From Lineus longissimus (lineage: Eukaryota > Nemertea > Pilidiophora > Heteronemertea > Lineidae), in NCBI RefSeq assembly GCF_910592395.1, contig NC_088308.1, positions 4,464,001 through 4,528,000 on the forward strand: DNA of 64,000 nucleotides, given 5' to 3'. Every line of letters starts with the position of its first letter. The first letter of the stretch is position 1. Positions 4,576-30,710 of this stretch are shown here, piece by piece. Under the pieces are notes generated by a model, which saw only the letters and a list, made by a program, of their open reading frames with translations, had not been told where the DNA came from and ran no database searches. The position numbers and the translations under genes are program-made.

Positions 4576-4639
4576 TAGTCTCATCCAAAAGCAAAGTAGG
4601 TAAACATGTTACCAAAAACAGACAACTCAAATAAACTGT

Positions 4640-9077: not shown

Positions 9078-9110
9078 TATAAAAGTGGAATAGGGATTGA
9101 TTATTCAGTA
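9078..9110 (+). promoter_or_regulatory. TATA box and initiator of the giant-exon gene
   Basis: TATAAAA at 9078-9084 is followed 29-30 bases later by a TCAGT initiator whose A (about 9107) would be +1. This spacing is textbook for a focused RNA polymerase II promoter. It is the only strong core promoter found between H2A.Z and the giant exon. It leads directly into a plausible non-coding first exon. Confidence 0.6.
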
Positions 9111-9582: not shown

Positions 9583-10115
9583 GCCTTCGACCCATCAGGG
9601 AGTTGTAAGAGACCCGCGGCAGTTGAAGACGCTCAGACTTGAATCCCTGGGGCTATATGTTAGAATTGTTAGATCTTGTTAGTAATGGTTTGGACTTCTG
9701 TCACGATCTTCAACTTGAATACATAGCCATTGACATGTTGACTTGGTGAACAAAAAAAGCTCAATGTCTGTCCCAATCTAACCTCCGCGTCCACAGGAAA
9801 CGAATAATCTTGCATCGGGGTGCGATTCTAAAAAAGTATTTCAAGGATTGATCATAGGCATCACCTGGGGCTAGAACTTGAAACCCTGCAGCAATTAGAA
9901 CTCGGAGTCTCATAACTCATAACTCTTTTCTCTTCAGGATCAGACCGAAAGTCAAAGTCGTCTCCAACAATCGACTCGAACGCAAGGCAAGACCAGTCAC
10001 CTCAGGAAAAGATATATCATAAAGGTACAGGGATACTTTTAATGACTTGTCCATTGCCGGCTTCAACCAAAACTGTATTGAGTGATACATTGTAGTAAAA
10101 AACAACGTTTCAGAA

Positions 10116-13100
10116 ATGGAAAATAGTCACGAACAACCAAAAATATTAGATTTCACGCCAGTACTTCAGGTCGCTCCTAAACCTCCAGCTTCACCAATTG
10201 AGCAAGAGGTGCTAGGCTACGCTCCCAAATTTTCAGCTGCGTCATTTGAGCCAGAGGCGCTAGGCTGTGCTTCTAAACTTCCCACCCTGTCAGTTGAGCA
10301 AGAGGTCTTTACAAAACTTCAGGTTGACGGCCCGGTATTAGAACAATCTCCAGATGCAGTCACAATGTCTGGAAATTTCGAATTTACGCTTACCGGTCTC
10401 GAAAAACTAACCATTGAACAGGGTCAGCGAATAGTTATCAAAGGAAAAATACAAAACTACCAGCTAATTGATGACGATGGAAATAGAATATCCAACGAGG
10501 CAGAAAGAGGGGAGGATCTTCAGGTCATGAGTCCAAGGGTAACTTACCAAGTGGCTTTCGGCCCACAGACTCCAGCGAGTTCACCGGTGGACGACCAGAC
10601 CGTGGATGGCAAGGGCCCTGAGACCGCTGAGAGAATCTGCCAAGTTTCACAAATCATTCGGCAATTTTCACTTTCTAACCTGCCCCGAGAGAGTGACCTG
10701 CGCGACCAGACGATTCGTCAAGGTCAAAGGGTGATTTTTGTACGTACTTGCTTAGATGCTGATGCTGGGAATTCAAATGAGATGCAAGTACGATTCCTGG
10801 AGACGGAAAGAGATGAGCATTTCATGTCATTTCAACCGCGTCCCACCATCTCTGTTCATTCGGTAGTAGGGACAACTAAGGAGAATACTTCTGAGGGTTC
10901 TGAAATCAGCAGAGGCTTTTCGTTAACCGATCTGGCCCGAGCTCGTGACCTTGAATTAATCATCTGTCAAGGTCAAAAGGTCATTTGGGATCAAGGTCGA
11001 ATCGATGCTGAAAAGGAGGATAGAACGGGTGAAGGACCTCTGGAGACTGAGAGGGACGAATACTACCTAGCATTTAGACCACGGCGAAGGGTGAAGATAC
11101 ATCAAACTGTCCTGACAGAAGACATCAGTACTATTGACGTTCAGCAACACCATTGTGGAGAAGGAACAACTGGGGCCAATGTCGTAGAAGAGACAATGAT
11201 CGAGGAAACCACCACCTCCGACAGCTTTTCGAAATTAATTGACCTTGGAATTTTAGGGTCATCCAAGGAAGCAATCAGAAAGTTTATTGAGACCGAGCGA
11301 GAAGAAAGAAACCTCGTCCAGGGTAGGAGACCATTGCTAGAATCCCAAGGTGCGATAGATGAGTCTGATGAACTCGATGTCTCTGAGGAGGAACTGACCG
11401 AAACTGTACACGATCGTGACGAGCACAAACCTGTTCATCCCCTTATGGACACGCCAATCGGCAAATCAGAAGATGAAAAACTCTATGGAAAAAATGAAAT
11501 TGGAGAAATCATAATTGAGGTTCCGTATGCTGAAGACTTTCATTCTGAAGCGAAATTTGAAGTTGGCCCTCGAGGTATTGAAACTGAGCAGCAGGTGGAA
11601 ATTGAAAGGAGTGAGAACGATATACACGTAGTTCAAGGAGAGAGACCTCTCCTTGGCCAGGGAGAGGAACCAAGTCAGAAGTCTCCTGATGGTGCTCAGA
11701 CGTATAATTCGGAGAAAGGGGGCGATTCTGAAGAGCACATTGATCAGGTTAACGTGTGTGAAGAAGAATGCGCCCCTGAGAGTGATTTCGAAGCAGCACT
11801 GAGTGAAACACGAACTAAGGAGATATCTGACACGAGTTCAGGGGACTTCTTCAACCGACTGTCTTATCTGATTGAAAATGAGAAGTCAAAATGGATGTCG
11901 ATGGAAAGAGGAGACACAGAAACCGCCAGATCTGAAACGTCTCTGGCCGATTCCTTCCTAGATGTGATCAGTCAGGCTATACCCGAAATGGGTGTCAGAA
12001 TAAAAAGAAGTGGAACTGTGATATCTTACAAAGAAGTCAAAAGATGCCAGTTATGTAGGGAATTGACCTCACCCGATTTGAGCGAAAAGGACGATGGAGA
12101 AACAAGATTAACTGATGACTCACAAGATCAGAAGTTTGTAAATACTTTAAGGTTTGATTTGGGAACAGGAAAGAATGCAAAAGTATATAGTACAAGTGAC
12201 ACTTCTTCACACGACATTGAGGAAATCGGAGCTCTTATTGAATCAAACAATAAAAATGATACAGCAATAGAAGCAGGTCATGATTCTGAACAAGGGACGA
12301 CTTATAAAGAGATCATACATAAAGATATTTATCTTTTACCACATCATAGCAACTGCAGCGATTTGAACTTGCCCACAACCGAAATACTTCCAGGTTGCCA
12401 ACCAACTGTAAGTGCATTTATTCACTACGAGAACATGCATGCAGAACTTCCACGCGGTACCAAACACCCGGGTGTCGGACATTCAGATGCAACCACAGAT
12501 GTTGAGAATGACAATCTGACATCGGAAGAGTCTGTGACTGAAAATAGAGCTAGTCGAACAGTCACGAGTCAGATGACCGAAACGAATACAGAATCTACTG
12601 GGGGAGATTCAAAGATGGGACAAAACAATAGCGAAGACGTTTGCCTGAATTTTCAAAGTGGGGTAGTGAGCCCCATTAAGGCATTTTCAATACATTTGGC
12701 AGAAAAGGGCAAGGGTGATGGCCGGCTAGGAGACAACAGTCGAGAGCAAGATGATTTCATTGGAACTGTCACAGCGAGGACAAATGAAACAGAAACGGTG
12801 TGGACTTCGAATCTTCTTCAAACTGCCTTGTCGGGCGAGATTGTCAACTTCCAGCACAAACTTTCATCAGAGAACACATCACATAGAGAAGACCCGACTG
12901 CACAAACAAATACTGGAAGTGAAACTGGCCTGGACGTGATAGATACTAGAGTCGGCAAGACCAGACTTTCAATCCATATAGCAGGTGTAACAGAAACCAT
13001 ATCCACAACAGACAACCAGACAAAGACCAAGGATGATATTGAAACAACTGTAGAAGTAGATGTCCCTGTGTCGGACCTCGAACTCACTCCATCTGAAGTG

Positions 13101-16100
13101 CTGACAATCAGAACTCAAACCGCCACCAACAATGATATCGAAACAACTGCAGGAGAAGATGTCCCAGCGTTAGACCTCGAACTCACTCCATCGGAGGGGC
13201 TGACAATTAGTAACACATCAGTAGAAATCTCTGTTGAGGAGATAATACCTAGACCAGTTGATGAAATACAACCAACAACGGATGATGGAAGGGACACTCG
13301 CCTGACTTTCATTAGCGGTATTGTTGATAAGGTCAGTTCTTTTGGTATTCAACTGACAGGTGATGGCAGAAATGTTCAAGTTACAAGGACCAAACGCAGC
13401 CAAGATGATATTGGAGGTTCTGCTACTGAAGACCGTACGCACTCACATGGTACATCCATTAGTTCAACAACAGCACCGAATGTCGATGCAACACTAACCA
13501 TGTCTACAAGAGAGGGGCTGACAATCACCACTCCAACTGTGGGGAAGGATGATAACCAAACACCTGAAGAAGAATATGTCCTTGTGCCCGACCTCAAACT
13601 CACTCCACCTGAGGGGCTCACAATCGCCACTCCAACTGTGGCCGAGGATGATATTGAGGCATCTGTAGAAGGAGATGTCCCTGTGCCCGACCTTGAACTC
13701 GCTCCACGTGAGGGGCTGACAATTAGTACCCCATCAGTGACGACCTCTGTCGAGGAGTCCATATCAAAACCAGATGATGTGATACAACCAACAACTGATG
13801 ATGGAAAGGATACTGACCTGAATTTCATTAGCGGTGTTGTTGATCCGGTCAGTTCCTTTGGTATTCACCTGACAGATGATGACAAGAATGTTGAAGTCAA
13901 AAGAACCGAACCAAGCCAAAATGATAATTTAGGTTCTACTACTGAAGATCGAACCCACCCTCAGAAAACACCCATCAGTACCATGACAATACTGAATGCC
14001 GATGCAACACTAGCCATATCTACAAGAGAGGGTCTGACAATCACCACTCACACCGTGACCAAGGATGATATCGAAACAGCTGTAAAAGAAGATGCTCCTG
14101 TGCCCGACCTTGAACTCGCTCCATCTGAGGGGCTGACAATCATTACCCCATCAGTGACGACCTCTGTCAAGGAGACCATATCAAGACCAGATGATGCGAT
14201 ACAACCAACAACTGAGGATGGAAAGGATACTGGCCTGAGTTTCATTAGCGGTAATGTTGATACGGTCAGTTCTTTTGACATTCACCTGACAGACGATGAC
14301 AAAAATGTTGAAGTCACAAGAACCAAACCAAGCCAAGATGATATTAGAGGTTCTGCTACTGAAGATCGTACGCACTCAGAGAAAACATCCATCAGTACTA
14401 TGACAGTACCGAATGCCGATGCAACACTAGCCATATCTACAAGAGAGGATAAGACACTACCAGGATCTGAAAAAGGTGGAATTATTGGCCCAAATGAACC
14501 GAATGCCGATGCAACCATATCTACAGGGGAGGGACTGACAATCACCACTTCAACCAGGGGCACCAATGATATCGAAACACCTCTAGAAGGAGATATCCCA
14601 GCCCCCGACCTGGAGATCCCTCCACCTGAGGGGCTCACAATCACCACTCCAACCGTGGCCACGGATGATATCGAAACATCTACGGAAGAAGATGTCCCTG
14701 AGCCCGACCTTGAACTCACGCTATCTGAGGGGCTGACAATCACCATTCCAGCCATTGGGAAGGATGATAACCAAACCGCTGTAGAAGAAGATGTCCCTGT
14801 GCTTGACCTTGAACTCATTCCATCTGAGGGGTTCACAATCACCACCACATCAGTGGCAAAGGATAACGAAACACCTGAAGAAGATGAAGATGTAATACGG
14901 AATAACGATGCAACACTAACCATATCTGCAAGAGAGGAGCTGACAATAACCACTCCAACCGTGACCATATATGATATCGAAAAAGCTGTAGAAGAAGATA
15001 CCCCTGTGCCCCACCTCGAACTCACTCCATCTGAGGGGCTGGCAATCACCACTCCAACCGTGACCAAGGATGAATTCGGAATAGCTATAGAAGGAGATGT
15101 CCATGTGCCCGACCATGAACTCACTCCATCAGAGGGGCTGACAATCACCACTCCAACCGTGACCAAGGATGATATCGAAACAGCTGTAGGAGAACATGTC
15201 CCTGTACCCGACCATGAACTCACTCCATCTGAGGGGCTGACAATCACCACTCCAACCGTGACCAAGGATGATATCGAAACAGCTGTAGGAGAACATGTCC
15301 CTGTACCCGACCATGAACTCACTCCATCTGAGGGGCTGACAATCACAACTCCAACCGTGGCCAAGGATGAATTCGGAACAGCTATAGAAGGAGATGTCCC
15401 TGTGCCCGACCATGAACTCACTCCATCAGAGGGGCTGACAATCACCACTCCAACCGTGACCAAGGATGATATCGAAACAGGTGTAGGAGAACATGTCCCT
15501 GTACCCGACCTAGAACTCACTCCATCTGAGGGGCTGACAATCACCACTCCAACCGTGACCAAGGATGATATCGAAACAGCTGTAGGAGAACATGTCCCTG
15601 TACCCGACCATGAACTCACTCCATCAGAGGGGCTGACAATCACCACTCCAACCGTGACCAAGGATGATATCGAAACAGCTGTAGGAGAACATGTCCCTGT
15701 ACCCGACCATGAACTCACTCCATCTGAGGGGCTGACAATCACCACTCCAACCGTGACCAAGGATGATATCGAAACAGCTGTAGGAGAACATGTCCCTGTA
15801 CCCGACCATGAACTCACTCCATCTGAGGGGCTGACAATCACCACTCCAACCGTGACCAAGGATGATATCGAAACAGGTGTAGGAGAACATGTCCCTGTAC
15901 CCGACCTAGAACTCACTCCATCTGAGGGGCTGACAATCACCACTCCAACCGTGACCAAGGATGATATCGAAACAGCTGTAGGAGAACATGGCCCTGTAAC
16001 CGACCATGAACTCACTCCATTTGAGGGGCTGACAATCACCACTCCGACCGTGGCCAAGTATGATATCGAAGCAGCTGTAGAAGAAGATGTACCTGTGCCC

Positions 16101-19100
16101 GACCTCGAACTCATTCCATCTGAGGGGCTGACAATCACCACTCCAACCGTGACCAAGGATGATATGGAATCAGGTGTAGACGAAGATGTCCCTGTGCCCG
16201 ACCTCGAACTCATTCCATCTGAGGGGCTCACAATCACCACTCCAACCGCAACCAAGAATGATATCGGAATAGCTGTAGAAGAAGATGTCCCTGTGCCCGA
16301 GCTTGATCTCACTCAATCTGAGGGGCTAACAATCACCAATCCTATCGTGACCAAGGATGATATTGAAGCAGCTGTAGAAGAAGATGTCCCTGTGCCCGAC
16401 CTAGAACTCACTCCATCTGAGGGGCTGGCAATCACCACTCCAACCGTGACCAAGGATGAATTCGGAATAGCTATAGAAGGAGATGTCCCTGTGCCCGACC
16501 ATGAACCCACTCAATCTGAGGGGCTGACAATCACAACCCCAACCGTGGCCAAGGATGAATTCGGAACAGCTATAGAAGGAGATGTCCCTGTGCCCGACCA
16601 TGAACTCACTCCATCAGAGGGGCTGACAATCACCACTCCAACCGTGACCAAGGATGATATCGAAACAGCTGTAGAAGAACATGTCCCTGTACCCGACCAT
16701 GAAATCACTCCATCAGACGGGCTGACAATCACCACTCCAACCGTGACCAAGGATGATATCGAAACAGCTGTAGGAGAACATGTCCCTGTACCCGACCATG
16801 AACTCACTCCATCTGAGGGGCTGACAATCACAACTCCAACCGTGGCCAAGGATGAATTCGGAACAGCTATAGAAGGAGATGTCCCTGTGCCCGACCATGA
16901 ACTCACTCCATCAGAGGGGCTGACAATCACCACTCCGACCGTGGCCAAGTATGATATCGAAGCAGCTGTAGAAGAAGATGTACCTGTGCCCGACCTCGAA
17001 CTCATTCCATCTGAGGGGCTGACAATCACCACTCCAACCGTGACCAAGGATGATATGGAATCAGGTGTAGACGAAGATGTCCCTGTGCCCGACCTCGAAC
17101 TCATTCCATCTGAGGGGCTCACAATCACCACTCCAACCGCAACCAAGAATGATATCGGAATAGCTGTAGAAGAAGATGTCCCTGTGCCCGAGCTTGATCT
17201 CACTCAATCTGAGGGGCTAACAATCACCAATCCTATCGTGACCAAGGATGATATTGAAGCAGCTGTAGAAGAAGATGTCCCTGTGCCCGACCTAGAACTC
17301 ACTCCATCTGAGGGGCTGGCAATCACCACTCCAACCGTGACCAAGGATGAATTCGGAATAGCTATAGAAGGAGATGTCCCTGTGCCCGACCATGAACCCA
17401 CTCAATCTGAGGGGCTGACAATCACAACTCCAACCGTGGCCAAGGATGAATTCGGAACAGCTATAGAAGGAGATGTCCCTGTGCCCGACCATGAACTCAC
17501 TCCATCAGAGGGGCTGACAATCACCACTCCAACCGTGACCAAGGATGATATCGAAACAGCTGTAGAAGAACATGTCCCTGTACCCGACCATGAAATCACT
17601 CCATCAGACGGGCTGACAATCACCACTCCAACCGTGACCAAGGATGATATCGAAACAGCTGTAGGAGAACATGTCCCTGTACCCGACCATGAACTCACTC
17701 CATCTGAGGGGCTGACAATCACAACTCCAACCGTGGCCAAGGATGAATTCGGAACAGCTATAGAAGGAGATGTCCCTGTGCCCGACCATGAACTCACTCC
17801 ATCAGAGGGGCTGACAATCACCACTCCAACCGTGACCAAGGATGATATCGAAACAGCTGTAGGAGAACATGTCCCTGTACCCGACCATGAACTCACTCTA
17901 TCAGAGGGGCTGACAATCACCACTCCAACCGTGACCAAGGATGATATCGAAGCAGCTGTAGAAGAAGATGTACCTGTGCCCGACCTCGAACTCATTCCAT
18001 CAGAGGGGCTGACAATCACCACTCCAACCGTGACCAAGGATGATATGGAATCAGGTGTAGACGAAGATGTCCCTGTGCCCGACCTCGAACTCATTCCATC
18101 TGAGGGGCTCATAATCACCACTCCAACCGCAACCAAGAATGATATCGGAATAGCTGTAGAAGAAGATGTCCCTGTGCCCGAGCTTGAACTCACTCCATCT
18201 GAGGGGCTGGCAATCACCCCTCCAACCGTGACCAAGGATGAATTCGGAATAGCTATAGAAGGAGATGTCCCTGTGCCCGACCATGAACTCACTCCATCAG
18301 AGGGGCTGACAATCACCACTCCAACCGTGACCAAGGATGATATCGAAACAGCTGTAGGAGAACATGTCCCTGTACCCGACCATGAACTCACTCCATCAGA
18401 GGGGCTGACAATCACCACACCAACCGTGACCAAGGATGATATCGAAACAGCTGTAGAAGAACATGTCCCTCTACCCGACCATAAACTCACTCCATCAGAG
18501 GGGCTGACAATCACCACTCCAACCGTGACCAAGGATGATATCGAAACAGCTGTAGGAGAACATGTCCCTGTAACCGACCATGAACTCACTCCATCTGAGG
18601 GGCTGACAATCACCACTCCAACCGTGGCCAAGTATAATATCGAAGCAGCTGTAGAAGAAGATGTACCTGTGCCCAACCTCGAACTCATTCCATCAGAGGG
18701 GCTGGCAATCACCACTCCAACCGTGACCAAGGATGATGTGGAATCAGGTGTAGACGAAGATGTCCCTGTGCCCGACCTCGAACTCATTCCATCTGAGGGG
18801 CTCACAATCACCACTCCAACCGCAACCAAGAATGATATCGGAATAGCTGTAGAAGAAAATGGCCCTGTGCCCGAGCTTGAACTCACTCAATCTGAAGGGC
18901 TAACAATCACCAATCCTATCGTGACCAAGGATGATATCGAAGCAACTGTAGAAGAAGATGTCCCTGTGCCCGACCTAGAACTCACTCCATCAGAGGGGCT
19001 GACAATCACCACTCCAACCGTGACCAAGGATGATATCAAAACAGCTGTGAAAGAAGATGTCCCTGTGCCCGACCTCGAACTCACTCCATCTGAGGGGCTC

Positions 19101-22100: not shown

Positions 22101-25100
22101 ACTATAGAAGAAGATGTCCCTGTGCCCGGGCTTGAACTTACTCCATCTGAGGGGCTGACAATCACTACTCCAACCGTGACCAAGTATGATATCGAAGCCT
22201 TTGTAGAAAATGATGTGCCTGAGCCCGACCTTGAACTCACTCCATCTGATCCTAGCCAGGATGATATTGGAGGGTCAGCGCATGTAGATCCTATTCCCAC
22301 TAAGGACATGTCGTTCAGTACAACTTCAGTACCAATATCCGATGTAGCGTACACCATATCAACAAGAGAGGAGCAGACACGACAAGAAACTGATGATGAC
22401 AGAGTTATTGGCCTGAACGTGACTGTGCCGACGGTACATTTCCCTGATACCAACCAGGATGATATTGAAACCCCTGTTGAAATAGAAGTTGCTGGGTCCG
22501 ACCTTCAAACGACTCCATCTGAGGGAATGACAATCGGCACTCCATCTGATACGGACACCGTACCAAGGACACCTGACGGAAATGGTATCGGCCTGACCTT
22601 TGTTGGTGGTATTGTCGATAGGGTCAGTTCCTTTGGTATCCGTCTGAAAGATGAAGACAAGAATGTTGAAGTGACAAAGATGGATACTAGCCAGGATGAT
22701 ATTGGAGGGTCAGCGCAAAGAGATCATATTCCCACTGAGGACACGTCCTTCAGTACAACTTCAGTACCAAGATCTGATGTAACGTACACCATATCAACAA
22801 GAGAGGAGCAGACACGACAAGAACATGATGATGGCAAAGTTATTGGCCTAACCGTTAATGTACCGACGGTGCATCTCCCTGATACCAACCATGATGATAT
22901 TGAAACTCCTGTTGAAGAAGAAGTTGCTGGGTCCGACCTTGAAACGACTCCATATGCGGGAATAACAATCGGCACATCATCTGTTACGGACACTCTACCA
23001 AGAAAAGATGATGGAAGGGATATTGGCCTGGCCTTTGTTGGTGGTATTGTCGATAACATCAGTTCCTTTGGTGTCCATCTGAAAGATGATGACAAGAATG
23101 TTGAAGTGACAAAGACAGATCCCAGCCAATATGGTATTGGAGAGTCAGCGCACGTAGATCCTATTCCAACTCAGGACATGTCGTTCAGTACAACTACTGT
23201 ATCAAATACTGACGTAACGTACACCATATCATCAACAGAGAAGCATACACGACAAGAAACTGATGATGGCAGACTTATTGGCCAGAACGTGACTGTTCCA
23301 ACATTGCATTCCCCTGATACCAACCGGGATGACATTAGAGGGTCTTCCCAAGTAGACCCTATTTCGACAGAAGACACGTCCTTCAGTACAACTTCAGTAC
23401 AAAATGTTGACGTTACGTACGCACTATCGTCAAACGAGGAACAGAAACGACCAGAAACTGATGATGGCAGAGTTATTGGCCTGAACGTGACTGTGCCGAC
23501 CGTACATTTCCCTGATACCAACCAGGATGATATTGAAACTTCTGTTGAAGAAGAAGTTCCTGGGTCCGACCTTCAAACGACTCCATCTGCGAGAATGACA
23601 ATCGGCACTCCAACTGTTACGGACACCGTACCAAGGACACCTGACGGAAATGGTATTGGCCTGACCTTTGTTGGTGGTATTGTCGATAGGGTCAGTACCT
23701 TTGGTATCCATGCAAAAGATGATGACAAGAATGTTGAAGTAACAAAGACATATCCTAGCCAGGATGATACTGGAGGGTCAGCGCAAGTGGATCCTATTCC
23801 CACTCAAGACACGTCCTCCTGTGCAACTTCCGTGCCAAATGCTGATGCAACGTACACTATATCAACAAGAGAGGAGCAGACGCGACAAGAAACTGATGAT
23901 GGCAGAGTTATTGGCATCAACGCGAGTGTTCCAACATTGCATTTCCCTGACACCAACCAAGATGATATTGGTGGGTCTGCTCAAGTAGATCCTGTTCCCA
24001 CTCAGGACACGTCCTTCAGTACAACTACAGTACCAAATGCTGACGTTAGGTACACCACATCAGGAAGAGAAGTGCAAACACGACAAGAAACTGATGATGG
24101 CAGAGTTATTGGCCTGAACGTGACTGTGCCGACGGTACATTTCCCTGATACCAACAACGATGATATTGAAACCCCTGTTGAAGAAGAAGTTGCTGGGTCC
24201 GACCTTCAAACGACTCCATCTGCGGGAATGACAATCGGCACTCCATCTGTTACGGACACCATATCATCAAAAGAGAAGCATACACGACAAGAAACTGATG
24301 ATGGCAGACTTATAGGCCTGAACGTGACTGTTCCAACATTGCATTCCCCTGATACCAACCGGGATGACGTTAGAGGGTCTTCCCAAGTAAACCCTATTCC
24401 GACAGAAGACACGTCCTTCAGTACAACTTCGGTGCCAAATGTTGACGTTACACACGCAATATCGTCAAGCGAGGAACAGAAACGACCAGAAACTTATGAT
24501 GGCAGAGTTATTGGCCTGAACGTGACTGTGCCGACGGTACATTTCCCTGATACCAACCAGGATGATATTGAAACCGATGTTGAAGAAGAAGTTGCTGGGT
24601 CCGACCTTCAAACGACTCCATCTGCGGGAATGACAATCGGCACTCCATCTGTTACGGACACATTACCAAGGACACCTGACGGAAATGGTATCGGCCTGAC
24701 CTTTGTTGGTGGTATTGCCGATAGGGTCAGTTCCTTTGGTATCCATCCAAAAGATGATGACAAGAATGTTGAAGTAACAAAGACATATCCTAGCCAGGAT
24801 GATATTGGAGGGTCAGCGCAAGTGGATCCTATTACCACTCAAGACACGTGCTCCTGTACAACTTCAGTGCCAAATGCTGATGCAACGTACGCTGAATCAG
24901 CAAGAGAGGAGCAGACGCGACAAGAAACTGATGATGGCAGAGTTGTTGGCATCAACGCGAGTGTTCCAACATTGCCTTTCCCTGACACCAACAAAGATGA
25001 TATTGGTGGGTCTGCTCAAGTAGATCCTGTTCCCACTCAGGACACGTCCTTCAGTACAACTACAGTACCAAATGCTGACGTTAGGTACACCACATCAGGA

Positions 25101-28100
25101 AGAGAAGTGAAAACACGACAAGAAACTGATGATGGCAGAGTTGTTGGCATCAACGCGAGTGTTCCAACATTGCCTTTCCCTGACACCAACAAAGATGATA
25201 TTGGTGGGTCGGCTCAAGTAGATCCTGTTCCCACTCAGGACACGTCCTTCAGTACAACTACAGTACCAAATGTTGACGTTAGGTACACCAAATCAGCAAG
25301 AGAAGTGAAAACACGACAAGAAACTGATGATGGCAGAGTTATTGGCCTGAACGTGACTGTGCCGACGGTACATTTCCCTGATATCAACCACGATGATATT
25401 GAAACACCTGTTGAAGAAGAAGTTGCTGGTTCCGATCTTCAAACGACTCCATCTGCGGGAATGACAGTCTGTGGCTCATCTGTCACGGACACCGTACGAA
25501 CAACAGATGACGGAAATGGTATTGGCCTGACCTTTATCGGCGGTGTTGTCGATAGGGTCAGTTCCTTTGGTATCCATCTAAAAGATGATGGCAAGAATGT
25601 TGAAGTTACGAAGACATATCCTAGCCAGGATGACATTGGAGGGTCAGCGCAATTAGATCCTATTCCCACTCAGGACACGTCCTTCAGTACAACTTCAGTA
25701 CCAAGATCTGATGTAACGTACACCATATCAACAAGAGAGGAGCAGACACGACAAGAACCTGATGATGGCAAAGTTATTGGCCTAAACGTTAATGTACCGA
25801 TGGTGCATTTACCTGATGCCAACCATGATGATATCGAAACTCCTGTTGAAGAAGAAGTTGCTGGGTCCGACCTTGAAACGACGCAATCTGAGGGAATGAC
25901 AATCGGCACATCATCTGTTACGGACAGCCTACCGAGAAAAGATGATGGAAGGGATATCGGCCTGGCCTTTGTTGGTGGTATTGTCGATAAGGTCAGTTCC
26001 TTTGGTGTCCATCTGAAAGATGATGACAAGAATGTTGAAGTGACAAAGACAGATCCCAGCCAATATGATATTGGAGAATCGACGCAAGTAGATCGTATTC
26101 CAACTCAGGACATGTCGTTCAGTACAACTACAGTACCAAATGTTGACGTTACATACGCAATATCGTCAAGAGAGGAACAGAAACGACCAGAAACAGATGA
26201 TGGCAGAGTTATTGGCCTCAACGTGAGTGTTTCAACGTTGCATTTCCCTGATACCAACCATGATGATATTGAAACTCCTGTTGAAGAAGAAGTTGCTGGG
26301 TTTGACCTTCAAACGACTCCATCTGCGGGAATGACAATCGGCACTCCATCTGTTACGGACACCGTACAAAGGACAGCTGATGGAAGGGATAATGGCCTGG
26401 CCTTTGTTGGTGGTATTGTCGATAAAGTCAGTTCCTTCGGTATGTATCTTAAAGATGATGACAAGAATGTTGAAGTGACAAAGACAGATCCCAGCCAGGA
26501 TGATATTGGAGGGTCAGCGCATGTAGAACCTATTCCCACTCAGGACACATCCCACGGTGCAACTTCAGCGCAAAAACCTTACGCGTCGTACACCATATCA
26601 ACAAGAGAGGAGCAGACACGAAAAGAAACTGATGATGGCAAAGTTATTGGCCTAAACGTTAATGTACCGACGATACTTTTCCCTGATACCAACCACGATG
26701 ATATCGAAACTCCTGCTGAACAAGAAGTTGCTGGGTCCGACCTTCAAACGACTCCATATGCAGGAATGACAATCGGCACATCATCTGTTACGGACACCTT
26801 ACAAAGAACAGCTGATGGAAGGGGTGTTGGCCTGGCCTTTGTTGGTGGTATTGTCGATAAGGTCAGTTCTTTTGGTGTCCATCTGAAAGATGATGACAAG
26901 AATGTTGAAGCGACAAAGACAGATCCCAGCCAATATGATATTGGAGAATCGACGCAAGTAGATCCTATTCCAACTCAGGACATGTCGTTCAGTACAACTA
27001 CAGTATCAAATGCTGACGTTACATACGCAATATCGTCAAGAGAGGAACAGAAACGACCAGAAACAGATGATGGCAGAGTTATTGGCCTCAACGTGAGTGT
27101 TTCAACGTTGCATTTCCCTGATACCAACCGGGATGATATTGAAACTTCTGTTGAGGAAGAAATTGCTGGTTCCGATCTTCAAACGACTCCATCTGCGGGA
27201 ATGACAGTCTGTGGCTCATCTGTCACGGACACCGTACGAACAACAGATGACGGAAATGGTATTGGCCTGACCTTTATCGGCGGTGTTGTCGATAGGGTCA
27301 GTTCCTTTGGTATCCATCTAAAAGATGATGACAAGAATGTTGAAGTTACGAAGACATATCCTAGCCAGGATGACATTGGAGGGTCAGCGCAATTAGATCC
27401 TATTCCCACTCAGGACACGACGTCCAGTACAACTTCAGTACCGAGATCTGATGTAACGTACACCATATCAACAAGAGAGGAGCAGACACGACAAGAACCT
27501 GATGATTGCAAAAATATTGGCCTAAACGTTAATGTACCGATGGTGCATTTACCTGATGCCAACCATGATGATATTGAAACTCCTGTTGAAGAAGAAGTTG
27601 CTGGGTTCGACCTTGAAACGACGCCATCTGCGGGAATGACAATCGGCACATCATCTGTTACGGACACCCTACCGAGAAAAGATGATGGAAGGGATATCGG
27701 CCTGGCCTTTGTTGGTGGTATTGTCGATAAGGTCAGTTCTTTTGGTGTCCATCTGAAAGATGATGACAAGAATGTTGAAGCGATAAAGACAGATCCCAGC
27801 CAATATGATATTGGAGAATCGACGCAAGTAGATCCTATTCCAACTCAGGACATGTCGTTCAGTACAACTACAGTACCAAATGTTGACGTTACATACGCAA
27901 TATCGTCAAGAGAGGAACAGAAACGACCAGAAACAGATGATGGCAGAGTTATTGGCCTCAACGTGAGTGTTTCAACGTTGCATTTCCCTGATACCAACCG
28001 GGATGATATTGAAACTCCTGTTGAAGAAGAAATTGCTGGTTCCGACCTTCAACCGACTCCATCTGCGGGAATGACAGTCTGTGGCTCATCTGTCACGGAC

Positions 28101-30710
28101 ACAGTACCAAGAACAGATGACGGAAATGGTATTGGCCTGACCTTTGTCGGAGGTGTTGTCGATAGGGTCCATTCCTTTGGTATCCATCTAAAAGATGATG
28201 ACAAGAATGTTGAGGTGACGAAGACATATCCTAGCCAGGATGACATTGGAGGGTCAGCGCAAGTAGATCCTATTCCCACTCAGGACACGTCCTCCTGTAC
28301 AACTACTGTGCCAAAATCTGGTGCAACGTACACTATATCAACTAGAGAAGAGCAGACACGACCAGCGACTGATGATGTCAGAGTTATTGGCCTGAACGTG
28401 ACTTTTCCAACATTGCATTTCCCTGATACCAACCATGATGATATTGAAACTCCTGTTGAAGAAGAAGTTGCTGGGTCCGACCTTCAAACGACTCCATCTG
28501 CGGGAATGACAATCGGCACTCCATCTGTTACGGACACCGTACAAAGGACAGCTGATGGAAGGGATAATGGCCTGGCCTTTGTTGGTGGTATTGTCGATAA
28601 AGTCAGTTCCTTCGGTATGTATCTTAAAGATGATGACAAGAATGTTGAAGTGACAAAGACAGATCCCAGCCAGGATGATATTGGAGGGTCAGCGCATGTA
28701 GAACCTATTCCCACTCAGGACACATCCCACGGTGCAACTTCAGCGCAAAAACCTTACGCGTCGTACACCATATCAACAAGAGAGGAGCAGACACGAAAAG
28801 AAACTGATGATGGCAAAGTTATTGGCCTAAACGTTAATGTACCGACGATACTTTTCCCTGATACCAACCACGATGATATCGAAACTCCTGCTGAACAAGA
28901 AGTTGCTGGGTCCGACCTTCAAACGACTCCATCTGCGGGAATGACAATCGGCTCATCATCTGTTACTGACACCGTACCAAGGACAGCTGATGGAAGGGAT
29001 AATGGCTTGGCCTTTGTTGGTGGTATTGTCGATAAAGTCAGTTCCTTTGGTGTCCATCTGAAAGATGATGACAAGAATGTTGAAGCGACAAAGACAGATC
29101 CCAGCCAGGATGATATTGGAGGGTCAGCGCATGAAGAACCTATTCCCACTCAGGACACGTCTTTCAGTACAACATCAGTGCAAAATCCTGACGTAACGTA
29201 CACCACATCATCAAGAGAGGAGCAGGAACGACAAGCGACTGATGATGGCAGACGTATTGACCTGAACATGAGTGTTCCAACAGTGCCTTTCCCTGATACC
29301 AACCAGGATGATATTGAAACTCCTGTTGAAGAAGATGTCACTGTGTCAGACCTTGAAACGATTCCATCTGTGATGAAGACTATACAAATAATTGATAACG
29401 AGATTCAACCAATGGTGGGCGATGGAAGGGATTTTGAAACTCCTATTCTGGAGGATGACCTTCAAATGACTCCATCTAAAGAAGTGACAATCAACACTTT
29501 GTTAGCGACGGCGTCGGTGAGAAAGACCGTAGTCGGCACAGACGATGTGATAAAAGTAGCAACTGACGTTGGAAGGGATATTAAGACTCCTGTTCAACAA
29601 GATGCTACTATCTCCGACCTTCAGCTAACTCGACCAGAGGTTGCATTCGTAGAGGAACCAAGATTATCCGTGAAGGAGCGGTCTGAGAATGAAATCGGTT
29701 CGTGTAGTGACGAGGATACCAGCGATGACTTGACGTTTGATTATAAAACCCAAGATAATATGGATACGTTTTTGACGGCAGATAGCAGACAACTTGGCTA
29801 TGAGCTTCAGGTGTACACATATAAAGACAATGGCATAGCAGACACGGTGCAGAAGGTTATGTCATTTGAGAACCATGATAGAACTGCCACAGGCAGTATT
29901 AAGGATTTGAAGAAAGATAGATCTGAAGAAGTCAATGAATCTTCATATGCGAAACTCGATGCAGGTTCTCATTTGGCAGAAGATGTTTCATCCCCGTCAA
30001 GGTTGGACACGTCTGCCACAAGTAGTGAGGGAACACCGTCTGCAAATCCTGAACAATCTGGTCCAACGCGGAGAGCTCCTGACATTGTCCCCGGGACTTG
30101 CGATGACAGTGAATCCCGTAATGAAAAACGACACGATACGAAGACCGAAAGTACTGGATTTTTCTCAAAGCTTTTTGGTGGTGTTTTTAAATCAAAGGAC
30201 TCGAACAAAACGTTGCGTGCTGAGGCAGGCGTTGAAGCTAAAGAAGAATCAAGCGAACCTAAAGACAATGATGAAAAGGAAGCGTCAAAATCAGACTCGC
30301 GTTCCGAAACAAGCTCCGGATCAGAATCGAGGTCAGATTCCAGTTCAAGCTCCGATTCTGATTCAAGCTCCAGTTCCAGTTCTGATTCAAGCTCCAGTTC
30401 CAGTTCTGATTCAAGCTCTAGTTCCGACTCAAGTTCTGATTCAGAACCTGATTCAAGCATCAAATCTGATGATAATTCCAAATCTGATTCAAGTCGGAGG
30501 AAATCGAAGAAGCAGATAAAGAAAAGGATGAAGACGAACTATACGCGAGGACCGGACGATGAGAAAGAGACGGCCAGCAGCCATGGTTCTGATCATGGGC
30601 GCATTGGTTCCGTTGCTGCCGCGGCCGAATTCTCAGGCGTTGTGGCCAAGCCATCAACCTCGTCAAAAAAGCGCAAACCATCAAAGAAGAGCTGGCTCAG
30701 ACGCTGGTAA
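10116..30710 (+). CDS. Giant repeat protein in one 20.6-kb coding exon, function unknown
   Basis: I do not recognise this protein. The 6864-codon frame starts at the first ATG after an in-frame TGA (10083-10085); the exon begins at 9938 after a strong acceptor. There is no signal peptide or membrane segment, so it is probably cytoplasmic or nuclear. Residues about 86-340 hold three diverged units of about 80 residues (FxLTxL...QGQ(R/K)VI...ETERDE). Residues about 970-1475 mix two repeat types. A 33-residue unit (LTPSEGLTITTPTV plus KDDIETAV) fills about 1475-3455 and 3565-4045. A 145-residue unit fills about 4045-6410. The tail has an amphipathic TGFFSKLFGGVFKSK (about 6680), a Ser/Asp/Glu-rich run (about 6725-6790) and a basic end (KKSWLRRW). 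It is acidic, rich in Thr/Pro/Asp/Glu/Ser, with very few Cys and Trp, hence probably disordered. Architecture recalls AHNAK, MUC16 or PEVK-type proteins, without detectable homology by eye. An uninterrupted frame over 20 kb of recent repeats argues that it is translated. Confidence 0.85.
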   Translation: MENSHEQPKILDFTPVLQVAPKPPASPIEQEVLGYAPKFSAASFEPEALGCASKLPTLSVEQEVFTKLQVDGPVLEQSPDAVTMSGNFEFTLTGLEKLTIEQGQRIVIKGKIQNYQLIDDDGNRISNEAERGEDLQVMSPRVTYQVAFGPQTPASSPVDDQTVDGKGPETAERICQVSQIIRQFSLSNLPRESDLRDQTIRQGQRVIFVRTCLDADAGNSNEMQVRFLETERDEHFMSFQPRPTISVHSVVGTTKENTSEGSEISRGFSLTDLARARDLELIICQGQKVIWDQGRIDAEKEDRTGEGPLETERDEYYLAFRPRRRVKIHQTVLTEDISTIDVQQHHCGEGTTGANVVEETMIEETTTSDSFSKLIDLGILGSSKEAIRKFIETEREERNLVQGRRPLLESQGAIDESDELDVSEEELTETVHDRDEHKPVHPLMDTPIGKSEDEKLYGKNEIGEIIIEVPYAEDFHSEAKFEVGPRGIETEQQVEIERSENDIHVVQGERPLLGQGEEPSQKSPDGAQTYNSEKGGDSEEHIDQVNVCEEECAPESDFEAALSETRTKEISDTSSGDFFNRLSYLIENEKSKWMSMERGDTETARSETSLADSFLDVISQAIPEMGVRIKRSGTVISYKEVKRCQLCRELTSPDLSEKDDGETRLTDDSQDQKFVNTLRFDLGTGKNAKVYSTSDTSSHDIEEIGALIESNNKNDTAIEAGHDSEQGTTYKEIIHKDIYLLPHHSNCSDLNLPTTEILPGCQPTVSAFIHYENMHAELPRGTKHPGVGHSDATTDVENDNLTSEESVTENRASRTVTSQMTETNTESTGGDSKMGQNNSEDVCLNFQSGVVSPIKAFSIHLAEKGKGDGRLGDNSREQDDFIGTVTARTNETETVWTSNLLQTALSGEIVNFQHKLSSENTSHREDPTAQTNTGSETGLDVIDTRVGKTRLSIHIAGVTETISTTDNQTKTKDDIETTVEVDVPVSDLELTPSEVLTIRTQTATNNDIETTAGEDVPALDLELTPSEGLTISNTSVEISVEEIIPRPVDEIQPTTDDGRDTRLTFISGIVDKVSSFGIQLTGDGRNVQVTRTKRSQDDIGGSATEDRTHSHGTSISSTTAPNVDATLTMSTREGLTITTPTVGKDDNQTPEEEYVLVPDLKLTPPEGLTIATPTVAEDDIEASVEGDVPVPDLELAPREGLTISTPSVTTSVEESISKPDDVIQPTTDDGKDTDLNFISGVVDPVSSFGIHLTDDDKNVEVKRTEPSQNDNLGSTTEDRTHPQKTPISTMTILNADATLAISTREGLTITTHTVTKDDIETAVKEDAPVPDLELAPSEGLTIITPSVTTSVKETISRPDDAIQPTTEDGKDTGLSFISGNVDTVSSFDIHLTDDDKNVEVTRTKPSQDDIRGSATEDRTHSEKTSISTMTVPNADATLAISTREDKTLPGSEKGGIIGPNEPNADATISTGEGLTITTSTRGTNDIETPLEGDIPAPDLEIPPPEGLTITTPTVATDDIETSTEEDVPEPDLELTLSEGLTITIPAIGKDDNQTAVEEDVPVLDLELIPSEGFTITTTSVAKDNETPEEDEDVIRNNDATLTISAREELTITTPTVTIYDIEKAVEEDTPVPHLELTPSEGLAITTPTVTKDEFGIAIEGDVHVPDHELTPSEGLTITTPTVTKDDIETAVGEHVPVPDHELTPSEGLTITTPTVTKDDIETAVGEHVPVPDHELTPSEGLTITTPTVAKDEFGTAIEGDVPVPDHELTPSEGLTITTPTVTKDDIETGVGEHVPVPDLELTPSEGLTITTPTVTKDDIETAVGEHVPVPDHELTPSEGLTITTPTVTKDDIETAVGEHVPVPDHELTPSEGLTITTPTVTKDDIETAVGEHVPVPDHELTPSEGLTITTPTVTKDDIETGVGEHVPVPDLELTPSEGLTITTPTVTKDDIETAVGEHGPVTDHELTPFEGLTITTPTVAKYDIEAAVEEDVPVPDLELIPSEGLTITTPTVTKDDMESGVDEDVPVPDLELIPSEGLTITTPTATKNDIGIAVEEDVPVPELDLTQSEGLTITNPIVTKDDIEAAVEEDVPVPDLELTPSEGLAITTPTVTKDEFGIAIEGDVPVPDHEPTQSEGLTITTPTVAKDEFGTAIEGDVPVPDHELTPSEGLTITTPTVTKDDIETAVEEHVPVPDHEITPSDGLTITTPTVTKDDIETAVGEHVPVPDHELTPSEGLTITTPTVAKDEFGTAIEGDVPVPDHELTPSEGLTITTPTVAKYDIEAAVEEDVPVPDLELIPSEGLTITTPTVTKDDMESGVDEDVPVPDLELIPSEGLTITTPTATKNDIGIAVEEDVPVPELDLTQSEGLTITNPIVTKDDIEAAVEEDVPVPDLELTPSEGLAITTPTVTKDEFGIAIEGDVPVPDHEPTQSEGLTITTPTVAKDEFGTAIEGDVPVPDHELTPSEGLTITTPTVTKDDIETAVEEHVPVPDHEITPSDGLTITTPTVTKDDIETAVGEHVPVPDHELTPSEGLTITTPTVAKDEFGTAIEGDVPVPDHELTPSEGLTITTPTVTKDDIETAVGEHVPVPDHELTLSEGLTITTPTVTKDDIEAAVEEDVPVPDLELIPSEGLTITTPTVTKDDMESGVDEDVPVPDLELIPSEGLIITTPTATKNDIGIAVEEDVPVPELELTPSEGLAITPPTVTKDEFGIAIEGDVPVPDHELTPSEGLTITTPTVTKDDIETAVGEHVPVPDHELTPSEGLTITTPTVTKDDIETAVEEHVPLPDHKLTPSEGLTITTPTVTKDDIETAVGEHVPVTDHELTPSEGLTITTPTVAKYNIEAAVEEDVPVPNLELIPSEGLAITTPTVTKDDVESGVDEDVPVPDLELIPSEGLTITTPTATKNDIGIAVEENGPVPELELTQSEGLTITNPIVTKDDIEATVEEDVPVPDLELTPSEGLTITTPTVTKDDIKTAVKEDVPVPDLELTPSEGLTITTPTVTKDDVETAVEEDVPVPDLELTPSEGLTITTPTVTKDDIETALKEDVPAPDLELTPSERLTITTPTVTKDDIKTAVKEDVPVPDLELTPSEGLTITTPTVTKDDIETAVEEDVPVPDLKLTLSERLTVTTPTVTKDDIKTAVKEDVPVPDLELTPSAELKIATPTVTKDDIERAVKEDVAVPDHELTPSEGLTITTPTVTKDDIETVVAEDVTVAVNQLTPSEGLAITTPTVTKDDIETALEEDVPLAFNQLTPSEGLATTTPTVIKDDIETAVEEDVPVPDLELIPSAGLTITNPIVTKDDIEIAIEKDVPEPDLELIPSEGLTITTPTVTKDDIERAVKEDVAVPELELTPSEGLTITTTTVTKYDIEGAVEEDVPVPELQLIPSEELTITDPIVTKDDIQATIEEDVNVPGLELTPSEGLTITTPTVTKYDIEAFVENDVPEPDLELTPSDPSQDDIGGSAHVDPIPTKDMSFSTTSVPISDVAYTISTREEQTRQETDDDRVNGLNVTVPTVHFPDTNKDDIETPVEIEVAGSDLQTTPSEGMTIGTPSDTDTVPRTPDEAAVEEDVPVPDLELTPSEGLAITPPTVTKDEFGIAIEGDVPVPDHELTPSEGLTITTPTVTKDDIETAVEAHVPLPDHELTPSEGLTITTPTVTKDDIETAVGEHVPVTDHELTPSEGLTITTPTVAKYDIEAAVEEDVPVPNLELIPSEGLTITTPTVTKDDVESGVDEDVPVPDLELIPSEGLTITTPTATKNDIGIAVEENVPVPELELTQSEGLTITNPIVTKDDIERAVKEDVAVPDHELTPSEGLTITTPTVTKDDIETVVAEDVTVAVNQLTPSEGLAITTPTVTKDDIETALEEDVPLAFNQLTPSEGLATTTPTVIKDDIETAVEEDVPVPDLELIPSAGLTITNPIVTKDDIEIAIEKDVPEPDLELIPSEGLTITTPTVTKYDIEGAVEEDVPVPELELTPSEELTITNPIVTKGDIQATIEEDVPVPGLELTPSEGLTITTPTVTKYDIEAFVENDVPEPDLELTPSDPSQDDIGGSAHVDPIPTKDMSFSTTSVPISDVAYTISTREEQTRQETDDDRVIGLNVTVPTVHFPDTNQDDIETPVEIEVAGSDLQTTPSEGMTIGTPSDTDTVPRTPDGNGIGLTFVGGIVDRVSSFGIRLKDEDKNVEVTKMDTSQDDIGGSAQRDHIPTEDTSFSTTSVPRSDVTYTISTREEQTRQEHDDGKVIGLTVNVPTVHLPDTNHDDIETPVEEEVAGSDLETTPYAGITIGTSSVTDTLPRKDDGRDIGLAFVGGIVDNISSFGVHLKDDDKNVEVTKTDPSQYGIGESAHVDPIPTQDMSFSTTTVSNTDVTYTISSTEKHTRQETDDGRLIGQNVTVPTLHSPDTNRDDIRGSSQVDPISTEDTSFSTTSVQNVDVTYALSSNEEQKRPETDDGRVIGLNVTVPTVHFPDTNQDDIETSVEEEVPGSDLQTTPSARMTIGTPTVTDTVPRTPDGNGIGLTFVGGIVDRVSTFGIHAKDDDKNVEVTKTYPSQDDTGGSAQVDPIPTQDTSSCATSVPNADATYTISTREEQTRQETDDGRVIGINASVPTLHFPDTNQDDIGGSAQVDPVPTQDTSFSTTTVPNADVRYTTSGREVQTRQETDDGRVIGLNVTVPTVHFPDTNNDDIETPVEEEVAGSDLQTTPSAGMTIGTPSVTDTISSKEKHTRQETDDGRLIGLNVTVPTLHSPDTNRDDVRGSSQVNPIPTEDTSFSTTSVPNVDVTHAISSSEEQKRPETYDGRVIGLNVTVPTVHFPDTNQDDIETDVEEEVAGSDLQTTPSAGMTIGTPSVTDTLPRTPDGNGIGLTFVGGIADRVSSFGIHPKDDDKNVEVTKTYPSQDDIGGSAQVDPITTQDTCSCTTSVPNADATYAESAREEQTRQETDDGRVVGINASVPTLPFPDTNKDDIGGSAQVDPVPTQDTSFSTTTVPNADVRYTTSGREVKTRQETDDGRVVGINASVPTLPFPDTNKDDIGGSAQVDPVPTQDTSFSTTTVPNVDVRYTKSAREVKTRQETDDGRVIGLNVTVPTVHFPDINHDDIETPVEEEVAGSDLQTTPSAGMTVCGSSVTDTVRTTDDGNGIGLTFIGGVVDRVSSFGIHLKDDGKNVEVTKTYPSQDDIGGSAQLDPIPTQDTSFSTTSVPRSDVTYTISTREEQTRQEPDDGKVIGLNVNVPMVHLPDANHDDIETPVEEEVAGSDLETTQSEGMTIGTSSVTDSLPRKDDGRDIGLAFVGGIVDKVSSFGVHLKDDDKNVEVTKTDPSQYDIGESTQVDRIPTQDMSFSTTTVPNVDVTYAISSREEQKRPETDDGRVIGLNVSVSTLHFPDTNHDDIETPVEEEVAGFDLQTTPSAGMTIGTPSVTDTVQRTADGRDNGLAFVGGIVDKVSSFGMYLKDDDKNVEVTKTDPSQDDIGGSAHVEPIPTQDTSHGATSAQKPYASYTISTREEQTRKETDDGKVIGLNVNVPTILFPDTNHDDIETPAEQEVAGSDLQTTPYAGMTIGTSSVTDTLQRTADGRGVGLAFVGGIVDKVSSFGVHLKDDDKNVEATKTDPSQYDIGESTQVDPIPTQDMSFSTTTVSNADVTYAISSREEQKRPETDDGRVIGLNVSVSTLHFPDTNRDDIETSVEEEIAGSDLQTTPSAGMTVCGSSVTDTVRTTDDGNGIGLTFIGGVVDRVSSFGIHLKDDDKNVEVTKTYPSQDDIGGSAQLDPIPTQDTTSSTTSVPRSDVTYTISTREEQTRQEPDDCKNIGLNVNVPMVHLPDANHDDIETPVEEEVAGFDLETTPSAGMTIGTSSVTDTLPRKDDGRDIGLAFVGGIVDKVSSFGVHLKDDDKNVEAIKTDPSQYDIGESTQVDPIPTQDMSFSTTTVPNVDVTYAISSREEQKRPETDDGRVIGLNVSVSTLHFPDTNRDDIETPVEEEIAGSDLQPTPSAGMTVCGSSVTDTVPRTDDGNGIGLTFVGGVVDRVHSFGIHLKDDDKNVEVTKTYPSQDDIGGSAQVDPIPTQDTSSCTTTVPKSGATYTISTREEQTRPATDDVRVIGLNVTFPTLHFPDTNHDDIETPVEEEVAGSDLQTTPSAGMTIGTPSVTDTVQRTADGRDNGLAFVGGIVDKVSSFGMYLKDDDKNVEVTKTDPSQDDIGGSAHVEPIPTQDTSHGATSAQKPYASYTISTREEQTRKETDDGKVIGLNVNVPTILFPDTNHDDIETPAEQEVAGSDLQTTPSAGMTIGSSSVTDTVPRTADGRDNGLAFVGGIVDKVSSFGVHLKDDDKNVEATKTDPSQDDIGGSAHEEPIPTQDTSFSTTSVQNPDVTYTTSSREEQERQATDDGRRIDLNMSVPTVPFPDTNQDDIETPVEEDVTVSDLETIPSVMKTIQIIDNEIQPMVGDGRDFETPILEDDLQMTPSKEVTINTLLATASVRKTVVGTDDVIKVATDVGRDIKTPVQQDATISDLQLTRPEVAFVEEPRLSVKERSENEIGSCSDEDTSDDLTFDYKTQDNMDTFLTADSRQLGYELQVYTYKDNGIADTVQKVMSFENHDRTATGSIKDLKKDRSEEVNESSYAKLDAGSHLAEDVSSPSRLDTSATSSEGTPSANPEQSGPTRRAPDIVPGTCDDSESRNEKRHDTKTESTGFFSKLFGGVFKSKDSNKTLRAEAGVEAKEESSEPKDNDEKEASKSDSRSETSSGSESRSDSSSSSDSDSSSSSSSDSSSSSSSDSSSSSDSSSDSEPDSSIKSDDNSKSDSSRRKSKKQIKKRMKTNYTRGPDDEKETASSHGSDHGRIGSVAAAAEFSGVVAKPSTSSKKRKPSKKSWLRRW
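13030..14540 (+). repeat. Composite repeat region mixing both unit types
   Basis: Coding. Copies of the 33-residue theme (TPSEGLTI...TKDDIET) alternate with a hydrophobic patch (ISGVVDPVSSFGIHL near 13310, 13830 and 14245) and with ATLAISTREGLTI and SATEDRTH-type stretches. These elements occur separately in the two large arrays further on. This looks like the least amplified, possibly ancestral arrangement from which both arrays expanded. Confidence 0.65.
14540..20480 (+). repeat. 99-bp (33-residue) in-frame tandem array, first block
   Basis: Coding. About 56-60 units of 99 bp, most differing by a few bases, with the first few (to about 14930) irregular. Variable positions cluster in the AVGEHVPVPDH segment; LTPSEGLTITTPTV is the most constant part. 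A block of nine units (891 bp) at 16031-16921 is repeated almost base for base at 16922-17812, so part of the array duplicated very recently. Confidence 0.9.
20481..20808 (+). repeat. Partial 145-residue unit embedded between 33-residue arrays
   Basis: Coding. It has the DPSQDDIGGSAHVDPIPT ... EGMTIGTPSDTDTVPRT segment typical of the long unit, then returns abruptly to the 33-residue array at PDEAAVEEDV. A near-identical copy lies 1770 bp downstream (from 22251), where it continues into full long units. The abrupt return marks the junction of a segmental duplication inside the exon. Confidence 0.75.
20809..22250 (+). repeat. 99-bp (33-residue) array, second block
   Basis: Coding. About 14-15 units, largely a copy of units from the first block. 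The piece near 18230-18960 matches 20890-21500 at an offset of 2661 falling to 2562 bp, and 19620-20480 matches 21490-22250 at an offset of 1869 falling to 1770 bp. Both offsets step by exactly one 99-bp unit. Confidence 0.85.
22251..29340 (+). repeat. 435-bp (145-residue) in-frame tandem array
   Basis: Coding. About 16 units. Each contains in order SQDDIGGSAQVDPIPTQDTS, a V-rich stretch ending TISTREEQTRQETDDG, RVIGLNVTVPTVHFPDTN, DDIETPVEEEVAGSDLQTTP, SAGMTIGTPSVTDTV, and the hydrophobic patch GLTFVGGIVDRVSSFGIHL plus KDDDKNVEVTKT. Truncated units occur (e.g. near 23330 and 24270), and blocks of two to five units are duplicated: 25440-26300 with 27180-28040 (1740 bp apart) and 26300-26790 with 28475-28965 (2175 bp apart). 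Confidence 0.9.
30290..30485 (+). repeat. Ser/Asp low-complexity coding tract
   Basis: Codons alternate Ser with Asp or Glu in the giant protein's tail, encoded by TCC/AGT/TCT/TCA mixed with GAT/GAC/GAA. It is strongly acidic and offers dense potential CK2-type sites. Basic Lys/Arg clusters follow directly. Confidence 0.9.

Follow-up and report, generated by a model that had tools for sequence, protein, structure and literature searches.

A giant predicted protein of Lineus longissimus built of a conserved 31-residue FVGG module interleaved with a variable 33-residue spacer

The window analysed here, a 64-kb stretch of DNA from Lineus longissimus, contains an ATG-initiated open frame of 6864 codons on the plus strand (10116-30710) without an internal stop, and this 20.6-kb frame appears, as predicted from its openness and from splice consensus, to be one coding exon of an animal gene. 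The protein that it encodes consists of two interleaved modules, namely a conserved 31-residue module, here termed FVGG, and a variable 33-residue spacer, here termed DIE. The frame is almost certainly protein-coding and under selection. The best explanation of its product, to which we assign a rough probability of 0.4, is an intracellular, largely disordered and strongly acidic scaffold protein of a functional gene, with FVGG modules acting as multivalent binding sites on acidic spacers and with a basic tail.

The open frame and the predicted gene

The stop-to-stop frame starts at 10086, and an in-frame stop thus lies ahead of the ATG at 10116. Upstream, a TATA-box-like TATAAAA (9078-9084, plus strand) matches the consensus of a candidate promoter and is followed by two predicted 5' UTR exons on the same strand, at 9107-9405 (the start taken from the first-pass annotation, the end from a donor CAAAG/GTAAGC) and at 9938-10024 (splice consensus). 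The first of these has an in-frame TAG, with no in-frame ATG from there to 10116. The giant coding exon (10114-30706) is followed by a good splice donor, CTG/GTAAGTATG, whose GT at 30707 overlaps the apparent stop of the giant frame. Joining this donor to a predicted acceptor at 31155 would add a last coding exon (31155-31188, plus strand), ending in ...SWLRRWLPERTDPAQL and a TAA at 31188, and would give a 6874-residue product of about 735 kDa. The predicted gene consists almost solely of the giant exon. Thus, the reading of 10116-30710 as a 6864-residue frame in the first-pass annotation is confirmed, with a frame that is open and fits one exon, as is its report of 99- and 435-bp tandem repeats, both of which were recovered by a tandem-repeat scan. 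Its further statements that the protein lacks a membrane helix and a signal peptide agree with the hydropathy profile, in which the highest 19-residue Kyte-Doolittle mean is 1.35 and the N-terminus is polar and not signal-peptide-like.

On one side the neighborhood includes a minus-strand histone gene, which we take to be an H2A.Z variant (the Pfam histone family was recovered in two of its three pieces, with one just below the cut-off), and further along lie a plus-strand gene with F-box and cyclin_N domains, presumably cyclin F, and a minus-strand transporter with ABC_tran and ABC_membrane domains, presumably of the ABCC type (all by Pfam). No second copy of the giant gene was found elsewhere in the 64-kb window, and Rfam and tRNA searches returned no match. 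The window scan showed the locus to be rich in tandem repeats: a 124-bp satellite of about 40 copies, 4% divergent and carrying non-triplet indels, occupies 41148-46101 between the cyclin F-like and ABCC-type genes and served as a non-coding control, while further minisatellites with periods of 40, 77, 136 and 42 bp flank the histone gene (1528-2770 and 7994-8330).

Several features of the giant frame bear on its coding status. Its non-repetitive ends would remain open by chance with log10 P of -25.7 for the 960 open codons at the N-terminus and -11.7 for the 444 at the C-terminus, as computed from base composition only. In the two 99-bp arrays, which are 7.3% and 8.4% divergent, no frame-breaking indel and a single in-frame one were observed over 6,932 aligned bases (5,543 + 1,389). 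In the control 124-bp satellite, 4,914 bases at 4.1% divergence yielded 16 indels, each of which broke the frame, with 8 distinct ones among them; this figure comes from two concordant runs, a third with a badly chosen starting unit having given 83. In the smaller non-coding arrays all 4 indels of the 136-bp array and 15 of the 18 of the 42-bp array were frame-breaking; the 40-bp array is useless as a control because its zero indels come from 169 bases. The 435-bp array has a -2 and a -1 indel within 9 bases of each other near its end, with a net change of -3.

Repeat architecture and selection

The FVGG module conforms to the pattern LxFVGG[IV]VDxVxSFGIxL...VEVT, with the core GLTFVGGIVDRVSSFGIHLKDDDKNVEVTKT, and opens the long repeat unit. 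By a looser pattern there are 17 copies (16 by a stricter one), extending from a degenerate version (aa ~843-846; module at 12642-12734, aa 843-873, recovered by self-comparison and motif scan) to aa 6300. All elements lie on the plus strand. A region with three modules at 13299-14324 (13299-13391, 13815-13907 and 14232-14324) precedes the main 33-residue array at 14529-20468 (aa 1472-3451), delimited by tandem scan and unit alignment, with the consensus TPSEGLTITTPTVTKDDIETAVEEDVPVPDLEL. This is followed by an interruption of long-unit-like sequence that has no FVGG module (20469-20852, aa 3452-3579) and then by a second 33-residue array (20853-22244, aa 3580-4043), delimited by tandem scan and unit tests. 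Irregular long repeats with modules at 22590-22682, 23025-23117, 23658-23750 and 24693-24785 fill 22590-25523, and a 435-bp (145-residue) array occupies 25524-29438, each of its units being opened by an FVGG module (25524, 25959, 26394, 26829, 27264, 27699, 28134, 28569 and 29004). The tandem scan itself reported 60.0 copies at 14529-20479, 14.6 at 20807-22249 and 9.6 at 25194-29370, along with periods of 198 bp (2 x 99). Comparison by eye indicates that the 145-residue unit includes a 33-residue segment of the short-array type (DDIETPVEEEVAGSDLQTTPS... in comparison with DDIETAVEEDVPVPDLELTPS...), and hence the two arrays look related. The spacing between D[DE]I-type anchors is most often 33 residues (43 times), then 66 (24 times). 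Exact repeats of 515 and 454 nt occur at offsets of 891 (9 x 99) and 2175 (5 x 435) nt, and such exact duplications at whole multiples of the unit point to recent expansion or turnover. The 33-residue arrays together make up about 2,440 residues and stay acidic, with no Cys across aa 1472-4043; the spacer is rich in T, P, E, D and V, with just 3.5% K.

The two modules differ in their signatures of selection. The nine 145-residue units are under purifying selection, with a pN/pS of 0.52 (codon bootstrap 0.39-0.70) and no stops against 4.9 expected (P 0.006), although one reverse frame is also low at 0.68. This set excludes a unit at aa 4304 that leaves the register (with it, ten units give 0.62) and omits most of the long units before aa 5137. 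Along the unit, pN/pS is 0.33 over the first 35 residues, which carry the FVGG module (bootstrap 0.17-0.68), then 0.59 in the middle, 0.50 in the 33-residue segment and 0.70 over the last 11 residues; the FVGG module is the most constrained portion of the repeats. For the 33-residue arrays pN/pS is 1.05 over 70 units (aa 1604-3451 and 3580-4043, units before aa 1604 being left out) and 1.01 over the 52 distinct ones (bootstrap 0.63-1.92). The other five frames of the same DNA give 0.66-1.01, the coding frame being the highest of the six, and among the classes of amino-acid change tested none is depleted. In simulation these arrays would lack any stop by chance with a P of 0.18, and given that the absence of stops is unremarkable the argument for their frame rests on the indels. 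Thus, the 33-residue arrays keep their frame while their sequence drifts, and the earlier proposal that survival of the frame reflects selection on translation is borne out by the absence of frame-breaking indels and by the pN/pS of the 145-residue units, but not by the stops or substitutions of the 33-residue arrays.

The ends of the protein have features of their own. The N-terminal 960 residues had been described as unique; however, self-alignment revealed three degenerate repeats of about 90 residues (10368-11140, plus strand, aa 85-341; FSLTxL...IxQGQRVI...LETERDE...PR), with aa 170-258 matching aa 254-339 (38%, E 1.3e-12) and a weaker first copy that is 26% identical to the second, and aa 841-894 matches the long repeat at aa 1232-1285 (35%, E 3.5e-6). 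A weaker echo links aa 391-437 and 494-541 (36.7%, E 0.003). In the ~90-residue repeats QGQ and E.ER.E are invariant, and no family matched them. A galectin-like reading of these repeats, based on what we took to be a galectin pattern, was rejected, since three members had no Pfam family at E<=10 and no galectin appeared in the PDB search.

A separate FF[SN][KR]L-like motif (SDSFSKL, SGDFFNRL, STGFFSKL) occurs at 11208-11237, 11832-11861 and 30144-30173 (aa 365-374, 573-582 and 6677-6686), the third copy belonging to TESTGFFSKLFGGVFKS (30144-30194, plus strand). Recovered by a motif scan without statistics and confined to the non-repetitive ends, it might represent a docking motif. At the C-terminus a Ser/Asp-rich run (30324-30446, plus strand) is followed by a basic tail (30495-30707, plus strand; charge and motif scan) with NLS-like clusters, RRKSKKQIKKRMK and KKRKPSKK, and a net charge of +13 over the 94 residues aa 6781-6874 of the predicted spliced product; clusters of this kind are common in proteins generally. 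Taken in blocks of at most 300 residues, the protein has a negative net charge throughout (23 of 23 blocks).

Predictions of structure lean towards disorder. AlphaFold2 gave a mean pLDDT of 27 for two 145-residue units (alignment of 11 similar rows) and of 46 for one N-terminal repeat (3 rows), values that may reflect either disorder or the little information held by such shallow alignments, and models too poor to be compared with known folds. In a charge-hydropathy analysis seven of nine regions, four of them barely, fall on the disordered side; the two classed as ordered are aa 1-84 and 3580-4043.

A homologous protein and the likeness to known systems

Searching with aa 4100-4999 recovered one match among the 7994 candidates that shared most words and were scored: P0002 (E 1.1e-57), a 603-residue 'hypothetical protein' from a JGI metagenome, which is a fragment encoded by a 2,425-base contig. 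Its alignment with the window protein scores 122 bits, the best of 300 shuffles reaching 25.0 (220 of the 300 aligned at all). P0002 has six whole FVGG cores spaced 78-93 residues apart, plus partial ones at both ends. Of the seven segments that follow its modules, three clearly belong to the DIE type (DIETALHEEIPVSELHLIPSDRETISTITATMTK). Identity of P0002 to the window protein averages 0.450 within the FVGG core, against 0.252 in the stretch behind it and 0.269 in the one ahead of it. When the window protein is cut into overlapping 300-residue segments, 32 of 46 match P0002 above 35 bits and 14 do not; the strongest matches (>50 bits) fall in aa 901-1650 and 3901-6600, and the match is weak or absent inside the 33-residue arrays and absent from aa 1-750 and beyond aa 6600. 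P0002 differs from the window protein in its module spacing, in showing three recurring unit types (1/4/7, 2/5 and 3/6 are alike by eye, as if repeating in three-unit sets) and in having no long 33-residue array within its 603 residues. A repeated LxFVGG[IV]VDxVxSFGI core together with DIE-type segments is found in both proteins, and it is nearly certain that the window protein has a family, of which one further gene or more exists. That this other gene lies in another species is likely, though less so than the existence of the family, as P0002 could be a paralogue. Thus, the earlier view of an undescribed and unrecognised protein stands as regards credible known domains but not as regards its isolation, given the 31-residue module shared with P0002.

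Among 5.8 billion proteins, no relative of the N-terminal piece was found in 3729 candidates or in the 7994 scored. This silence says little about animals because the database offered no positive control for animal proteins, and annotated animal relatives may exist. No relative was confirmed among 1, 7 and 25 pattern matches in viral contigs or among 43 in GTDB contigs, and phage records contained none. Nine peptide strings from both modules were absent from the papers searched, and none of the proteins in the excerpts dealing with very long exons or very large repeat proteins, among the matches listed, was recognised as the window protein.

Profile searches of the frame (Pfam over the whole frame in six pieces, NCBIfam over four of the six, PHROGs over two stretches and P0002) and a PDB search uphold the earlier statement that it has no recognisable domain, inasmuch as no credible domain was recovered. 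No Pfam, NCBIfam or PHROGs match to the frame has an individually significant stretch. Matches summed over the protein include Sipho_Gp157 (1.4e-14), phrog_17232 (1.6e-09), phrog_15548 (1.1e-07), S1_2 (5.6e-07), VpsT-like_REC (7.4e-07), FAF (1.9e-06), GH101_N (4.4e-06), phrog_18001 (5.3e-06) and clan_AA_DTGA (0.0012). The five of these that are from Pfam score above their curated cut-offs for whole proteins; we take these totals to be sums of weak matches across many repeats. On P0002 Pfam returned no family.

The S1_2 family (PF13509), with a summed score of 30 against a cut-off of 21.8 and no individually passing stretch, aligns its profile positions 9-33 of 61 with the FVGG core. One of the 15 core members matched it at E 0.12, two other families scoring better and DUF4527 equally. 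Membership in the S1 domain was rejected, as less than half of the domain is covered and no stretch is individually significant, and the resemblance offers at most a hint of a β-hairpin in the core. The best sequence matches in the PDB, to 2rc3_A (a CBS domain, E 0.024) and then 3gbo_A (E 0.4), were taken as chance. A PDZ-like reading of 'GLTFVGG...FGIHLK' was likewise set aside, as this pattern is missing from the degenerate module at aa 843 and no PDZ match was obtained.

In general design the closest parallel is with the AHNAK proteins, which bind annexin A2/S100A10, dysferlin and the like. These are likewise proteins of about 600-700 kDa with tandem repeats in a giant exon alongside small exons. 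An excerpt on them describes AHNAK repeats of about 128 residues and an AHNAK2 exon of about 17,559 bp that encodes repeats of 165 residues (PMC10682155). The PDZ domain is absent from the window protein at E<=1 (aa 1-1495, 3929-4962 and 5963-6864) or E<=0.1 (aa 1496-3928 and 4963-5962), and its repeats are of 33 and 145 residues, the long unit being a compound of the 31-residue FVGG core and 33-residue-type segments; the comparison is one of repeat lengths rather than of directly aligned sequences. Thus, the window protein is not a member of the AHNAK family, although it may act in a broadly similar way. A long coding exon is also a feature of giant ankyrin-B and ankyrin-G, an excerpt on the latter describing a 7.8-kb exon that adds a large Ser/Thr-rich region (PMC5422562). 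However, splicing in the ankyrins makes this exon part of a multidomain protein, unlike the window exon, which makes up practically the whole predicted gene and has no ankyrin, ZU5 or death domain within the giant frame itself. Secreted mucins have a signal peptide and Cys-rich domains, whereas the window protein has a polar N-terminus by hydropathy, no Cys in aa 1472-4043 and no mucin-type Pfam domain.

Possible functions and significance

A multivalent scaffold is a possible, if tentative, mechanism for such a protein. The FVGG modules might be short hydrophobic sites for binding or self-association, possibly in the form of β-hairpins, many of which would be displayed along a polyanionic flexible chain, while the basic NLS-like tail might anchor or localise the protein. 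The protein would serve as a multivalent scaffold or bristle, reaching further the more spacer units it has, and these units might turn over through unequal exchange.

The earlier suggestion of a flexible spacer or entropic spring agrees with the acidic, spacer-like 33-residue units but not with the finding that the constrained part is the separate 31-residue FVGG module. A spring of the titin-PEVK kind, for which the T/P/E/D/V-rich units, predicted disorder and tandem turnover might speak, is distinctly unlikely: neither Ig nor FnIII nor any other anchoring domain was matched, conservation falls on a hydrophobic module and not on the spacer, and K makes up only 3.5% of the spacer, little by the standard of PEVK composition. 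A scaffold or bristle is the better fit, since a spring alone would leave the FVGG module without a role. A nuclear condensate or nucleolar scaffold that works in the manner of treacle or Nopp140 could be suggested by the C-terminus, where two basic clusters come after the Ser/Asp run, and by CK2-like [ST]xx[DE] patterns, of which the five repeat regions have 5.7-9.4 per 100 residues. This is unlikely, though less so than the spring, as the Ser/Asp and basic features are limited to about the last 140 residues and the CK2-like counts come without a background model.

A more serious alternative, real though falling well short of probable, is that the gene is genuine and its FVGG parts matter, the 33-residue arrays being a tolerated coding minisatellite that stays in frame and whose length is neutral. 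Their pN/pS near 1, the lack of a depleted class of change and the recent turnover are in keeping with this, as is the presence of FVGG modules in P0002 without a long 33-residue array; against it, the arrays stay acidic and have no Cys. The data do not separate such a passenger from a spacer, because a spacer too needs little constraint on its sequence. By comparison, it is highly improbable that there is no gene at all and that a non-coding minisatellite happens to be open. The minisatellite-rich surroundings and the P of 0.18 for a stop-free 33-residue array would suit it, but it is opposed by the openness of the two ends, the lack of frame-breaking indels in the 99-bp arrays, the purifying selection on the 145-residue units and the homology to P0002.

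Thus, in conclusion, the protein is probably a new family inside a known class, that of giant, disordered repeat proteins whose coding sequence lies in a single large exon. At slightly under even odds, it would represent an undescribed giant animal scaffold family based on a new repeat of about 31 residues, the FVGG module, possibly a minimal β-hairpin or a motif for self-association. In such a family the modules would be fixed and the acidic spacers would freely expand and contract within one exon larger than that of AHNAK2. If so, it would be a further family whose coding exon is very large, and one that is nameless in the libraries searched. Its parts would differ in how they evolve, the module being constrained and the spacer drifting while it stays in frame. 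Whether the length of a disordered array matters could then be tested directly, by setting the length of the array against the conservation of the modules across individuals and species.
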